Part shown: positions 2,492 through 59,329 of the stretch, in pieces | Layout: each line of letters begins with the position of its first letter | How positions within the stretch are numbered: position 1 is the first letter of the stretch | From: Chloroflexota bacterium | Lineage (GTDB): Bacteria; Chloroflexota; UBA11872 | Length of the DNA: 64,000 bases | Reading direction: 5' to 3' | NCBI GenBank assembly: GCA_022824495.1 | Contig: JAJDZU010000019.1 | Coordinates: 1 to 64,000, forward strand | The notes under the pieces: generated by a model | Database searches by the model: none | The model's input: the letters and a program-made list of their open reading frames with translations, nothing else | Told to the model about the DNA's origin: nothing | Translations under genes and position numbers: made by a program

Positions 2492-3559
2492 TCACTGGTC
2501 GACTACTCGCCAAACCGTCGCGCCAACCTGAGAGTCGAGCGCCGCAAGCGCGCGCCCATCGGGTCGCCAGTACAAGGCACCGACCCTGTCCGACAAAGCT
2601 GCGACGCCTATCGGATCGCCTTGCCCATCGCGCCCGAGCGAGGCCACGACGACGATTCCGTCCCGAGCTCCCGAGGCCAGGCGCATCCCCCGGCGAGCGA
2701 AGGCGAGGGCCGTTACAGATTGAACATGATGTTCCAGGACGCCGGGCCGCGTGCCTTCGGGGCCACTTCCCCGAAAGCTCCAGACCGTCACCGACTCGCC
2801 TCCGCCGGTGGCCAAAAGAGTGCCGGTGTCGTCGAAGGCCAAGGCCGACGGCTTCCCAGGATATCCCGACATCATCGAGTCCTGCGCCGTGGAGCGACGC
2901 CAGAAGTGCACCGAGTTGTCCTGGCTGCCGCAGGCCACGATGTCCCCGTCCGGGCTCAGTACCATCGACACCAGGGAGCTCATCCACTCCAGCTTCTGGC
3001 GAACCTCGCCGTTGGACGCGTCGAAGAACGTGACCCGGCCGTAGCAGGCCGTCGCCAGCTCCTCTGTGCCGGACCACGCGATCGCGCTGACGGTACTGGG
3101 ATGATCGTCGGATCGCCAGATTCTCACTCCATCCGCGCGGTACGCGTGAACCTGCCGGGAGCAGGAGGCTGCGAACCACTGTCCGTCCGGCGACCACGCC
3201 ACGTTCTCCACCCAGCCATTCCCGACGTCGACAGCCTGGCTGACCCGACCTTCGTCGGAGTTCCAGACCAGGACTCGGCCGTCCTGGCCGGCCGTGGCGA
3301 ACGCGGGTCGGTCAGGCTGCATCGCCAGCGCGAGCACACCGCCTTCATGGGCTTCGCGCTGCGCCCAGATGGTGGCGCCGGACCTGCCGTCGAACGCGTA
3401 GACGCCACCCGCGGCGTCTGCGACTACCAGCGCCTCGCCGCGCGGCGTCCACCCGCCGGCGATGGCGTAGTCGCCGACTTCCGCGGACCAGCCCGGGCGA
3501 AGAACGCCCCTCGGGCTGCCGCCGTTCAAGTCAGGCATGCCCCGGATCAAACCAGGCAT
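2492..3559 (-). CDS. WD40 repeat protein of the CobW group
   Basis: A beta-propeller protein with about seven WD40-like blades. Repeated pieces such as [48 protein letters not shown] and the terminal VWRVVDQ are visible. There is no signal peptide, so it is probably a cytoplasmic scaffold. I place the start at ATG 3559, which overlaps the CobW stop by 13 nt and has GAGG just upstream. A second ATG at 3538, after the CobW stop, is nearly as good. The longer frame to 3643 only shadows CobW. Overlap and shared strand imply translational coupling with the GTPase. WD40 genes next to COG0523 GTPases recur in metal-responsive clusters, but the partner is not known. Confidence 0.8.
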
Positions 3560-4968
3560 GCCTCGAATCCCTGCCGCATGCTCTCCTCGTCGAGGTTGCG
3601 GCCGATGAAGATGAGCTGATTGCGGCGGGGCGCGTCTCCCCATGGACGATCCGGCTGCCCGTCGAAGAGCATGTGAACCCCCTGAAACACGAAGCGACGC
3701 GACTCGCCCGCGAGGCTGATGAAGCCCTTCATTCTGAAGATGTCGACCCCGCGTTCACGGAGCAGCATGCCAAGCCACGTGTTGAGCAGGCCGGGATCGA
3801 CGTCGCCGTCCCTCTCGATTGCGATTGAGCCCACTTCGTCGTCGTGCTCATGCTGCGCGACCCAGGTTCGCTCGACCTCGACGGGGACCACGCCGTTGAC
3901 GCCAGGGCCGCCGGTCTCCGTGGTGGGCGGCACCCTGGAGGACGGACCGTCTTCAGGCCCGACTGTTGCCCCATTCGCGCTCGTCAGTTGCAGATCGAAC
4001 TCCTCCGCGGTGTGCTGGGCGAAGAGGCCGACCCTCGCCTGCGTATCGACCTCCAGGAAGAACGACTTGCGCCCCGGGGAGTCAAGCTGGAGGTTGAGGT
4101 GCTTGCCGACAGCGATCTCGTCTCCCGGACGAACGGGCTCCGCGGGTTCGGCGTACCGACGCACACACCATTCCGCACCTTCACGAAGTGCGGAGTCTTC
4201 CGTGCCCTGGTCGGGTACGACGACGAGAGACATCGCCGGGTCAGGCCCATCGGCCAGGCTGAGTTCGTAGCGGCCGGTGTCGAGCGAATAGACACCCGTC
4301 CATTCGAACGGGTACTCCGGCTCGAGAAAAGTGGGACGCCGCTCGAGCACCTGGTCCAGGTCGAAGGCAGCGAGGTTGAGTACCGAATCGACGGAGACGT
4401 CGGCCCACTCGCTGCGGATGACTCGCGCCATGCGATTCATCTCCCGGAGCCGGGTCTCGAGCCTGTCGAGCCTGTCGCCGTCGACGAGGTCCGTCTTGTT
4501 GAGAACGAGGACGTCCGCGAACGCGATCTGTTCCGTGCTCTCGTCGCTTCGGCCGAGCTGCTGCTCGATGTGGGCCGCGTCGACGAGCGTGACGATTCCG
4601 TCCAGCGCGTACTCCGCGCGAATCTCGTCGTCCATGAAGAACGTCTGTGCGACCGGACCGGGATCGGCGAGCCCCGTGGTCTCCACCAACACGTAGTCGA
4701 ACTTGTCTCGGCGCTTCATGAGGTTGCCGAGCACGCGGATCAGGTCACCGCGCACCGTGCAGCAGATGCAGCCGTTCGACATCTCGAAGATTTCCTCGTC
4801 GGCGTTGATGACGAGCGCCTGATCGATGCCGACCTCCCCGAATTCGTTCTCGACCACGGCGATGCGTTTGCCGTGCTCCTCCCGCAGGATCCGGTTCAGC
4901 AGGGTCGTTTTGCCGGAGCCAAGAAAGCCGGTAAGGATCGTCACGGGTATGTTGCGAGGGGCGTCCAT
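3547..4968 (-). CDS. CobW/COG0523 G3E-family GTPase, putative zinc chaperone
   Basis: A 473-aa G3E GTPase. Walker [10 protein letters not shown] lies at residues 14-22, the metal-binding CICC at Cys67-Cys70, and the guanine-specificity NKTD near residue 157. A CobW C-terminal domain ends with [17 protein letters not shown]. Between the GTPase and C-terminal domains is a longer-than-usual insert (about residues 215-375) rich in acidic residues. COG0523 proteins load metal onto client proteins. With a Fur/Zur regulator in the same group, a zinc role is the best inference rather than cobalamin synthesis. Its ATG directly abuts the stop of the 102-aa gene upstream, so they are co-translated. Confidence 0.88.
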
Positions 4969-55089: not shown

Positions 55090-55103
55090 TGACGCGTGGT
55101 CAG

Positions 55104-55227
55104 GTTTCCCGGTGACCTATGCGATGAGGCCACACCTGTTCCCATCCCGAACACAGTCGTTAAGTTCGTCAGCAGCGACAATACTGCCGGGGCAACCCGG
55201 TGGGAAGATAGCCCGTTGCCGGGAAAC
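55104..55227 (+). rRNA. 5S ribosomal RNA
   Basis: About 124 nt. Closing helix GTTTCCCGG (55104-55112) with CCGGGAAAC (55219-55227). The conserved CCCATCCCGAACAC and GGTGGGAAGATAGCCCG are present. It lies 45 bp after 23S and is part of the same transcript. No clear terminator hairpin follows; the next 40 bp are pyrimidine-rich. Confidence 0.96.
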
Positions 55228-55350
55228 TTGACCGCGCGTCCGCGTTCACTTCTTCACTTCGTCTCTTCTTTTCATGGCATCTGCGCCCATGACGCCAATC
55301 GCTCCCGGCTTCGGCTCCGGCACGCGGCCTCGCATGCCGACTGGCGGCGC

Positions 55351-56241
55351 ATGACCGTCCAACAGCCTCGGCCGCTGCGCGGCCAGGTGGCGCTCGTCGC
55401 CGGCGCTACCCGCGGCTGCGGGCGCGGCATTGCCGTTGAGCTTGGCGCCGCCGGCGCCACCGTCTACTGCACCGGCCGTACCACGCGTCAGCACCAGTCG
55501 CCCATGAAGCGGCCGGAAACGATTGAGGAAACGGCTGAACTGGTCGATGCCGCGGGCGGCTCGGGTATCGCGGTGCAGGTCGATCACACCGAACCGGCGC
55601 AGGTCGAATCGCTCATTACCCGCATCCGAAACGAACAGGACGGCCGGCTCGACATCCTGGTCAATGACATCTGGGGCGGCGAGGACATCGTCGTCTGGGG
55701 TCGCCGCTTCTGGGAGCATTCGCTCGAGGATGGGTTGCTCCTGCTTCGGCAGGCAATCCACACCCACATCATCACCAGCCACTTCGCCCTGCCGCTCATG
55801 CTCGAGTACGGCCAGGGCCTTGTGGTTGAAGTCACCGACGGCAATAAGCTGGGCTACCGGCGCCAGTTCTACTACGACCTGGTCAAGACCACGGCCATTC
55901 GTCTGGCGCTGGCCTTCGACCACGAGCTCCGCGAGCACAACGACCAAAACCGAATCACCGCGCTGGCCATCACACCCGGCTTCCTGCGCTCCGAGTGGAT
56001 GCTGGACCACTTCGGCGTCACCGAGGCGACCTGGCGCGACGCCATCGAGCAGGATGTGGACTTCGCCGTCTCCGAAACGCCCCGATTTCTCGGTCGGGTG
56101 GTCGCGGCGCTGGCCGCCGATCCCAAAGTCGGCCGCTACGCCGGCCAGGCGCTCACCAGCTGGGATATGGCCAAGGTCTACCAGGTCGACGACGTGGACG
56201 GCCGGCGACCGGACTGGGGCGCATACACGCCGGTCAACTGA
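55351..56241 (+). CDS. SDR-family oxidoreductase (DHRS1-like)
   Basis: 296 aa. The cofactor motif AGATRGCGRGIA (TGxxxGxG) and the catalytic YxxxK in YYDLVKTTAIRLA are in place. LDILVNDIWGGED replaces the usual NNAG, as in the DHRS1-like group. The open frame to 55096 lies over 5S rRNA and is rejected; ATG 55351 gives a normal N-terminus. It reduces or oxidises an unknown carbonyl/alcohol pair. Confidence 0.87.
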   Translation: MTVQQPRPLRGQVALVAGATRGCGRGIAVELGAAGATVYCTGRTTRQHQSPMKRPETIEETAELVDAAGGSGIAVQVDHTEPAQVESLITRIRNEQDGRLDILVNDIWGGEDIVVWGRRFWEHSLEDGLLLLRQAIHTHIITSHFALPLMLEYGQGLVVEVTDGNKLGYRRQFYYDLVKTTAIRLALAFDHELREHNDQNRITALAITPGFLRSEWMLDHFGVTEATWRDAIEQDVDFAVSETPRFLGRVVAALAADPKVGRYAGQALTSWDMAKVYQVDDVDGRRPDWGAYTPVN

Positions 56242-57197: not shown

Positions 57198-57902
57198 CTA
57201 GAAACCGCGATTCGGGTCTTTGCGCGTAAGGCCCCGCGACTTCGCGTAGTCGTCCAGGTTGAAGCCCGGTTCCAGGTAGCTCAGCCGCGTGGCCTCCTCG
57301 CCTTCCAGGATCTTGTGCGCCGCCGCCGCCACCTTGTCGGCAATCTCCATGGGAATCGTGCACACGCCGTTCTCGTCGCCGTGCACCAGGTCGCCCGGGT
57401 TTACGTCCATGCCGTCGATCGCAACCGGAATCTGCGCGCGAATAATGCGATTGTTCGCGTGCGACGGCGCCAGTCCCCGCGCGAACGGCTTGATGCCGGC
57501 GCCTTTGACGCCCTCCAGGTCGCGCAGCGCCGCGTCCGTCACGATGCCGTCCGCGCCCAGCACGTGCGCCAGCGTGGCCATCCCGTCGCCCGCGTGCACC
57601 GAGTGTGTCGGATCATCGCCGAAGTCCTTGATCACCAGCACCACCGGGTTCGGCGTTTCGTCCACGGCTTCCCACATCTGGAACATGCCGTCCGGGCTCT
57701 TGGGCGCGTCCTCGCTCATCGTGTCGCCCAGCGCCGTGACGGCGTACCCCAGCATCACGCCCATGTCCGGGGCCAGGTAGCGGATGTTGGTGCCGGTGAA
57801 TCCCAGCGTGTTGGGCCGGACGCCGAACGTCTCGATCGCGTTCAGAATCGTGGGCGTGTCGATCTCGCGAAGTTCGTCAAGCTGCGCCTGGGTCAGGGCC
57901 AC
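57198..57902 (-). CDS. RraA-like protein (HMG/CHA aldolase family)
   Basis: 234 aa. The RraA/dimethylmenaquinone-methyltransferase-like fold is recognised by DTPTILNAIETFGVRP, HSVHAGDGMATLAHVLGADGIVTDAALRDLEGV and the motif PGDLVHGDENGVCTIP. Members cleave 4-hydroxy-4-methyl-2-oxoglutarate or 4-carboxy-4-hydroxy-2-oxoadipate, or have other roles. The conserved Arg/Asp pair (DAALRD) is present. It lies 51 bp downstream of the ArsC/Spx-like gene on the same strand. Confidence 0.85.
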   Translation of the reverse strand: MALTQAQLDELREIDTPTILNAIETFGVRPNTLGFTGTNIRYLAPDMGVMLGYAVTALGDTMSEDAPKSPDGMFQMWEAVDETPNPVVLVIKDFGDDPTHSVHAGDGMATLAHVLGADGIVTDAALRDLEGVKGAGIKPFARGLAPSHANNRIIRAQIPVAIDGMDVNPGDLVHGDENGVCTIPMEIADKVAAAAHKILEGEEATRLSYLEPGFNLDDYAKSRGLTRKDPNRGF

Positions 57903-57953: not shown

Positions 57954-58310
57954 CTACGCTTCAGCGCCGGCGAGTTCCTCGTACGCGTCCGCGTCGAAAC
58001 CGAATACCCGAACCTTCCCCGCGGCCAGCGTGGGACGCCGCACCAGGTTCTGGTTGTCCAGCATCAGCTCCAGCGCCTGCGCGTCGTCAATCGTGTCGCG
58101 CTCGATCCCCAGCTTTCGGAACGACGGACTGCGCGGGTTCATCACCTCTCGCAGCGAATGCGGTCCCGCGATTGCTCGAATATCGTCGGCAGTCAGCGGC
58201 TTCCGCGCATAGTCACGCGGCGCATATTCCAGGCCTGTCGCATTCAAGGCCGCACGGGCCTTTCGGCAACTCGTTCAGGTGCTCTTGAAGTAGAACGTCG
58301 GCAGCGCCAT
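57954..58310 (-). CDS. ArsC/Spx-family redox protein, candidate selenoprotein (in-frame TGA = Sec)
   Basis: Reading through one TGA gives 118 aa that match the ArsC/Spx family over the whole length. The N-terminus is MALPTFYFKST-[TGA12]-TSCRKARAAL, then NPRSPSFRKLG and LELMLDNQNLVRRPTL. Spx proteins have CTSCRKARA here, so TGA replaces the first redox cysteine and would give U-T-S-C. ATG 58310 is set by a perfect GGAGG seven bases upstream; the ribosome binding site overlaps the preceding stop (TAAGGAGG), implying coupling to the dehydrogenase. A hairpin follows TGA. The alternative start, TTG 58247, has no ribosome binding site and drops the active site. TGA is a normal stop elsewhere, so either Sec or an inactivating mutation applies. 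Confidence 0.72.
58246..58262 (-). promoter_or_regulatory. candidate bacterial SECIS hairpin
   Basis: Twelve bases after the TGA (58277-58275) the mRNA reads AAGGCC-CGUGC-GGCCUU: six perfect pairs and a five-base loop with G in the second position. The loop begins 18 nt after the UGA. Position, loop size and the early G meet the usual criteria for bacterial SECIS elements. It also encodes part of the helix after the active site, so chance is possible. Confidence 0.55.
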
Positions 58311-58321
58311 CAATATCCTCC

Positions 58322-59329
58322 TTACGCCTCGTCCCACTGCAGGATGATCGACAACCACCCCGCCGGGCCGCGTCTGATCATGTCATACAGGTCCGCGGCC
58401 TTTGTATACGGCTCGCGGTGCGAAATCAGCTGGTCGACCCTGAACTCGCCGCGCCCCATCGCATCCAGGATGTACTGCCGGTTGGCCGCCCGCGTCCACT
58501 GGAACATGTGATACGGCTCGCGCGGGTACATCGACTGGTACGTGCCGATCAGCGACAGTTCCTTGCGCAGCAGTTCCACCTGCAGGCCAATCTCCACGGT
58601 CCCCGGCGGGCTGCCCGTCATGGATATCGTTCCGCCGGCCGCCGCCGCCCGCATGCAGTCCGGCAGGATCTTGGGCGTGCGCGTCACCATGAACACCACC
58701 CGCGCCCCGCCGCCTGTCAGGTCCTGAATCGCCGCCACGGCATCCTCGCGCTGCGCGTTGACCGTATGCGTCGCCCCCGACCGGCGAGCCAGCTCAAGCC
58801 GTTCGTCCAACAGATCGACCGCGACTACCGGGTACGCCCCGGCCATGCGCGCAAACTGCGTGACCATCTGCCCCAGCCCGCCCTGGCCAAAGACCGCCAC
58901 CGAGTCCCCCAGCCCCGGTCGCGCCCGCCGGACCCCATGCAGCGCCACGTCCCCCAGCACCGCGAAGCTGGCATCGTCATCGCTGACGTCGTCGGGGACA
59001 TGGCCCGCGTAGGCAGGCACGTCGTCGAGGTCGGGATCGATGGTGATCAAGCCGGCGCCCTGGTGCGGCAGACAGGTGAGAACTCGATCACCAACGGCGT
59101 AACCTTCGACATCCCGGCCAACCTCCGCCACCTGGCCAACCAGGGCATAGCCGGGATCGCGGCGTTCCGTCGCCGAGAGTTCCAGGATGTTCAATTCCGT
59201 CCCGGCGCTGATCAATGACCGGGTCGAGCGCACCAGGATCTGGTTGGGCGCCGGATCGGGAACCTCGATGTCCTCGATCGCGACGGCGCCGCCTTCAAGA
59301 AACACGACCTGCGATGTAGTGGTTGGCAC
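58322..59329 (-). CDS. MDR-family dehydrogenase (zinc-site residues largely absent)
   Basis: 335 aa. The N-terminal GroES-like domain has RSTRSLISAGTELNIL in place of the usual CGSD zinc motif, and the structural zinc cysteines are absent. The NAD(P)-binding AVFGQGGLGQMVTQFARMAGA and VVAVDLLDERLELARRSGA are good. It is closest to chlorophyll-synthase-like/Bch-type MDR members. The substrate is unknown. Its TAA is part of the ribosome binding site of the candidate selenoprotein gene. Confidence 0.82.
   Translation of the reverse strand: MPTTTSQVVFLEGGAVAIEDIEVPDPAPNQILVRSTRSLISAGTELNILELSATERRDPGYALVGQVAEVGRDVEGYAVGDRVLTCLPHQGAGLITIDPDLDDVPAYAGHVPDDVSDDDASFAVLGDVALHGVRRARPGLGDSVAVFGQGGLGQMVTQFARMAGAYPVVAVDLLDERLELARRSGATHTVNAQREDAVAAIQDLTGGGARVVFMVTRTPKILPDCMRAAAAGGTISMTGSPPGTVEIGLQVELLRKELSLIGTYQSMYPREPYHMFQWTRAANRQYILDAMGRGEFRVDQLISHREPYTKAADLYDMIRRGPAGWLSIILQWDEA

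Follow-up and report, generated by a model that had tools for sequence, protein, structure and literature searches.

The gene at positions 57954..58310 on the reverse strand of the stretch analysed here (hereafter the window: 64,000 nucleotides of contig JAJDZU010000019.1 from a Chloroflexota bacterium, assembly GCA_022824495.1) can be assigned, with a probability of roughly 95 %, to a small ArsC/Spx selenoprotein with a thioredoxin fold, in which the UGA at codon 12 would be decoded as selenocysteine (Sec, U) by SelB and tRNA-Sec under the guidance of a hairpin. The TGA, the hairpin, the decoding machinery and the UxxC motif can all be read in the sequence and point to Sec being very probably inserted at residue 12, and cross-genome comparison gives good support to the gene being very probably a genuine selenoprotein. 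The features to which the text refers are as follows.

57954..58310, reverse strand: predicted selenoprotein gene, 118 residues counting Sec12, TAG stop; ArsC family (PF03960)
58275..58277, reverse strand: candidate Sec codon TGA, first position of UxxC; same site in relatives
58317..58321, reverse strand: Shine-Dalgarno sequence GGAGG, 6 nt before the ATG at 58310
58245..58247, reverse strand: internal TTG, the start in the mechanical ORF list; 97 aa, active site lost
58246..58262, reverse strand: SECIS-like hairpin of the bacterial type, stem of 6 bp (AAGGCC/GGCCUU), loop CGUGC, UGA-to-loop distance 18 nt
58322..59329, reverse strand: zinc-type dehydrogenase gene, upstream; wherever the genus and family loci examined extend far enough, a relative also precedes the homologue
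57198..57902, reverse strand: RraA-like gene, downstream; adjoins the homologue in those loci of genus g1 that were examined

A conserved TGA at the redox site

The reading frame starts at the ATG at 58310, reads MALPTFYFKST, the TGA at 58277-58275 and TSCRKARAAL, and then stays open to the TAG at 57956-57954. An earlier note on this DNA had described the GGAGG, this start and the peptides on both sides of the TGA, all of which we read in the sequence, as well as a full ArsC body down to 57954, which is borne out by the open frame and by the read-through protein scoring 61.3 bits with PF03960 (ArsC; gathering score 24). It had also placed the TGA exactly on the first redox cysteine, and Spx structures indeed read CTSCRKARA where the window protein reads UTSCRKARA. 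As the note foresaw for a conventional gene call, the mechanical ORF list shows just the 97-aa piece from TTG 58247 and not the active site, which makes this gene a solid example of how such a list truncates a selenoprotein. A GGAGG precedes the start in 8/9 close relatives, the exception being L029, in which the sequence before codon 8 differs.

Nine named loci with 86-94 % identity to the window gene all carry TGA at the site (9/9); these were not counted a second time beside the whole-genome loci. A protein search of 151 genomes, the window's own included, found a match in 29, and in 25 of these TGA occupies the exact codon. Two of the remaining four matching genomes have Cys at the site (L055, 34 % identical, and L058), and L059 and L060 are weak glutaredoxin-like matches with Cys at the site. 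Searching the same 151 genomes with PF03960 gave matches in 30; five matches, in other genomes or places, lacked TGA. Reading four of the five (L087-L090; the other is a further place in G046) showed that Sec and CxxC are both missing from the site. These four are ArsC-family proteins from genomes of another family of the same phylum.

A profile built from 25 aligned rows, mostly TGA forms, was then used to search 400 genomes from the phylum and matched 103 of them. Forty matches reach E <= 1e-26; a single in-frame TGA is present in 37 of them and absent from three. The TGA form thus stands to the Cys form as 37 to 3 among strong matches to a mostly TGA-built profile, the weaker matches being mostly unread. 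The profile's own rows make up 25 of these 40; 14 genomes are new, 13 of them with TGA. Matches with E > 1e-18 were read only where the protein or PF03960 search had already found them. Eighteen further loci were read (14 fetched, four from the profile search), 16 of which have the TGA as UxxC, including two for which the profile search had shown no stop, their matches starting only past the TGA. Another of the eighteen, L113, has Cys at the site, and L130 (genome G266), in which neither UxxC nor CxxC was readable, was dropped before counting.

The TGA sequences thus total 41 (the window gene plus 40 homologues, each from a different genome of the same phylum), are at least 26 % identical to the window protein as measured from the Sec site on, and read UxxC in every case (41/41). 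Among the three comparable Cys homologues (L055, L058 and L113), the motifs CTSC, CSGC and CSTC each occur once at the site. An alignment with Cys-containing homologues, one of the checks proposed earlier, therefore sets three Cys homologues and the CTSC of Spx beside 41 UxxC proteins; a second concern, that close relatives might carry unrelated stops at this site, found no substance, as their stop there is TGA. Since the same TGA occurs in 41 separate genomes, a sequencing error is a poor explanation for it. In the 25 aligned rows the frame is conserved on both sides of the TGA, Sec/Cys12, C15, L22, R92 and P93 are invariant, and R60 is kept in at least 90 %. In six of the 41 (L043, L054, L116, L121, L124 and L125), the gene with TGA at the Sec site also terminates on TGA.

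In a tree, the three Cys rows fall in two places among the Sec rows, a placement that would suit changes from Sec to Cys; given the weak support of the deep nodes and several long branches, we claim no direction for the change. L052, which is interrupted by Ns, was omitted from the tree and from the synonymous test described below.

The hairpin and the decoding machinery

The perfect 6-bp stem with the 5-nt loop CGUGC that the earlier note had described 12 nt past the TGA is present in the sequence, its arms being 58262-58257 and 58251-58246. Bacterial SECIS elements have been defined by a loop of 3-9 nt, a stem of at least 4 bp and a G in the first two loop positions (PMC13188914), with a spacing of 16-37 nt and -7.5 kcal/mol or lower (PMC13188914, figure legend). 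Under a perfect-stem version of these rules, the window gene qualifies (5-nt loop CGUGC, 6 bp, spacing 18, -9.0), although 225 of the 1518 TGAs on both strands of the window (15 %) qualify as well. Hairpins of this kind follow the TGA in 35/41 TGA sequences, the six that fail the strict rules being L047, L049, L054, L118, L126 and L128, and were found in 0/3 Cys homologues. Set against synonymous recodings that preserve its peptide, the window hairpin alone is not exceptional (p = 0.147), and this test gave p < 0.05 in 7/25 TGA sequences and 1/4 Cys sequences. The significance of the hairpin comes from comparison across genomes and not from the single sequence. Rfam returned nothing at the selenoprotein gene, its three matches in the window being rRNA and tRNA.

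Across 16 close genomes the mean synonymous difference is 0.042 in the six hairpin codons, as against 0.377 in the 49 usable codons outside them (permutation p = 4e-5), and the sole two synonymous changes within the hairpin (AAG->AAA and GCC->GCT) both occur in L047, where a G-C pair becomes A-U. The longest run without synonymous change in 11 close genomes is the hairpin, with six codons; the second longest, with five, surrounds the TGA and lies outside the stem. Counting pairs is weak in this close set because the stem hardly varies: 32/500 shuffles were as high, and the covariation consists of one compensatory pair.

A second layout, an 8-bp stem whose three-base loop starts 23 nt past the TGA, was found in 21 distant sequences. 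There, 146/168 cells are paired, a count reached by 0/1000 shuffles (highest 132), bearing in mind that the shuffles ignore relatedness and that the stem was defined on the very sequences counted. The same geometry placed at 29 other in-frame offsets pairs 38-89 cells, and in the three Cys homologues it pairs 15/24; when the count was made on six of the 21 distant sequences, 6/500 shuffles were as high. The loop reads G[G/U]N in 21/21 sequences of the distant layout and CGUGC in 18/18 of the first, and L048 and L049 fit neither. Spread over many genomes and having two or more hairpin layouts, this group of genes should be useful for testing SECIS rules. The terminal TGA of the six homologues that end on this codon is also followed by a qualifying hairpin in 3/6 (L121, L124 and L125), where it is weaker than the one at the Sec site; L054 has no hairpin at either.

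These data bear on the objection that the TGA is a true stop in a pseudogene, or a sequencing error, and that the product is the truncated 97-aa protein from TTG 58247. The TTG-started ORF does exist, and TGA does terminate six of the 41 homologous sequences as well as the neighbouring ORF 55096-56241, but an identical TGA in 41 separate genomes, a frame conserved on either side of it, a conserved peptide before it with a ribosome-binding site in close relatives, paired changes in the hairpin and the overlap of the TTG with the conserved stem leave this explanation hardly credible.

The earlier note had treated absence of selA, selB, selC and selD from the whole genome as decisive against its proposal; all four are present in the window's genome (25 contigs, 3.37 Mb, 93.5 % complete). 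The scores are 516.6 bits for selA (cut-off 267.9), 342.1 for selB (cut-off 242.25), 371.2 for selD (cut-off 125) and 71.2 for tRNA-Sec (selC; cut-off 47), the last also called tRNA-SeC by ARAGORN. A second place matching the tRNA-Sec model, with 48.6 bits, is tRNA-Ser according to ARAGORN, and the model is loose, being over its cut-off in 5/14 control genomes. Furthermore, selA is over cut-off in 25/25 genomes with a TGA homologue, but since this holds for 127/151 of the genomes searched overall, the co-occurrence of selA and the TGA is only a modest association. The genomes of the Cys-bearing L055 and L058 also have selA over cut-off, which would suit a change from Sec to Cys without loss of the machinery. 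The selD of the window's own genome (contig C13, 14559-15485) has an in-frame TGA within its GUAC motif, so that SelD is itself a predicted selenoprotein.

A different decoding of the UGA, whether by a genome-wide sense code, a suppressor or programmed readthrough inserting Trp or Cys, found no point in its favour and is extremely improbable: TGA terminates ORF 55096-56241, among 13 places in the genome that match the families of selA, selB and selD, SelD alone has an in-frame TGA, in its GUAC motif, the three comparable homologues without TGA have Cys, and a SECIS-type hairpin occurs together with a full selABCD set. The use of TGA as a true stop nearby, also pointed out in the earlier note, is thus seen in ORF 55096-56241 (called SDR by eye). 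In its longest form this ORF starts at 55096 and overlaps the 5S rRNA (55108-55224), and its true start therefore probably lies later.

Protein family and likely role

A thioredoxin-type fold and, as the likeliest role, that of a thiol/selenol oxidoreductase are suggested for the window protein by its family. Its function would be that of a fast reductase for thiol/selenol-disulfide or oxyanion substrates. In such a cycle, the selenolate of U12 would serve as the attacking group on the oxidised substrate, held by the conserved R60 and R92; C15, the resolving thiol of UxxC, would then form an Se-S bond with U12, setting the product free. The enzyme would presumably be reset by a reductant of the thioredoxin or thiol type. 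No PADLOC match was obtained, and a role in defence was set aside.

The designation "ArsC/Spx-like" given earlier holds at the level of the family (PF03960); as a reference to Spx the RNA-polymerase regulator it finds no support in the model cut-offs for the window protein or at the G52 position. Accepting Sec at residue 12, the protein might still sense redox state and regulate transcription in the manner of Spx/MgsR proteins, switched through U12-C15, a role that we consider possible but unlikely. Spx 3l78 is the best solved-structure match (E 9.5e-13), although YffB 1rw1 is nearly as good (E 8.5e-12). The Spx/MgsR model TIGR01617 is missed by only 1.25 bits (73.8 vs 75.05) and is passed by three of the nine TGA homologues tested (L048 81.8, L049 84.7, L054 76.4), whereas the models of Spx proper stay far under their cut-offs (53.9 for NF002459, 37.2 and 34.7 bits vs 123, 159 and 152). 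The window protein shares with Spx (NF002459; 3l78, 3gfk, 1z3e) the CTSCRKAR string, as UTSCRKAR, and the conserved R60 and R92, of which R60 is described in the Spx literature as required for activation. It differs in having Sec where Spx has Cys, and in G52, which aligns to S52 just after a two-residue gap, in a column that varies among the relatives; in Spx, a G52R mutant is described as activation-defective (PMC2801614). YffB is also ArsC-like with a similar body, but has Met where the window protein has the resolving C15, and Cys instead of Sec. A Sec-based redox switch in the full sense, an Spx-like protein that keeps U12-C15, binds RNA polymerase and lets selenium directly set the transcriptional oxidative-stress response in Chloroflexota, would be very doubtful.

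That the selenoprotein is a true arsenate reductase appears quite improbable. It belongs to the ArsC family, its arginines are conserved, and published relatives carry the name arsenate reductase; however, it scores far under the cut-off of the arsenate reductase ArsC model TIGR00014 (31.7 vs 106.05 bits), its gene is flanked by those of a dehydrogenase and an RraA-like protein, and the genome (93.5 % complete) gave no match to the arsenite pump Acr3 and, for the ArsB-type pump, a best match far under cut-off (107.6 vs 415 bits). The preferred reading remains that of a selenoprotein whose likeliest role is thiol/selenol oxidoreduction.

Published relatives and gene neighbourhood

ArsC-like selenoproteins with UxxC have been in print since 2008, and the window gene adds a member to them. 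One such group was filed under cd03032, which we take to be the Spx branch. The Global Ocean Sampling study describes it as "Arsenate reductase 2", cd03032, with UxxC (PMC2398784), a marine group comprising 42 Sec and 238 Cys members, provided that the run-together columns of its table are read rightly (PMC2398784). This group and the window protein, compared by description only, are both of the ArsC family with UxxC, and the string "Chloroflex" is absent from the main text of that paper (PMC2398784). An earlier study of the Sargasso Sea lists 14 ArsC-like selenoproteins with UxxS (PMC1088965). These arsenate reductases are also of the ArsC family with Sec at the redox position, but have UxxS and hence a single redox residue, in contrast to the UxxC of the window protein (PMC1088965). 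A survey from 2006 names ArsC-like selenoproteins in Desulfotalea and Desulfuromonas (PMC1794560), and a similar list appears in PMC9312934.

The curated family NF041106 is given as arsenate reductase-like with UxxC in a 2026 review (PMC13188914). As with the window protein, its members are ArsC-like with UxxC, having Sec or Cys; at 38.2 bits against a cut-off of 85, however, the window protein lies outside this model, and nine TGA homologues run against it gave scores of 24.7-51.2 for eight and no listed match for the ninth. The group to which the window gene belongs is perhaps a separate Chloroflexota subfamily. At the level of titles and abstracts, literature joining selenoprotein, Spx and UGA yielded nothing related, and that on sponges, Chloroflexi and selenocysteine nothing on an ArsC-like UxxC group. 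With NF041106 staying under its cut-off here, the group should be useful for training annotation models, and furthermore for asking why a small stand-alone redox protein keeps Sec.

In the loci examined from a second genus (g2), no RraA-like neighbour was found, and among the flanking ORFs of six more distant loci, 0/10 were dehydrogenase or RraA-like. As the neighbours do not recur in these distant loci, functional linkage was dropped and no pathway can be named from them. The relative of the dehydrogenase adjoins the homologue in some loci and lies about 0.85-0.96 kb off in others: the two genes stand side by side in the window, L024 and L028, and the larger distance is seen in seven close relatives (L025, L026, L027, L030, L031, L032 and L039). 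For L027, L031, L032 and L039 this gap comes from tblastn only, and in L025, L026 and L030 it was read (about 3030-4000) and is filled by an ORF of ~220 aa resembling a membrane protein. Just before the seleno-ArsC gene of L026, L027, L031 and L032, tblastn also places a remnant of the 3' end of the dehydrogenase.
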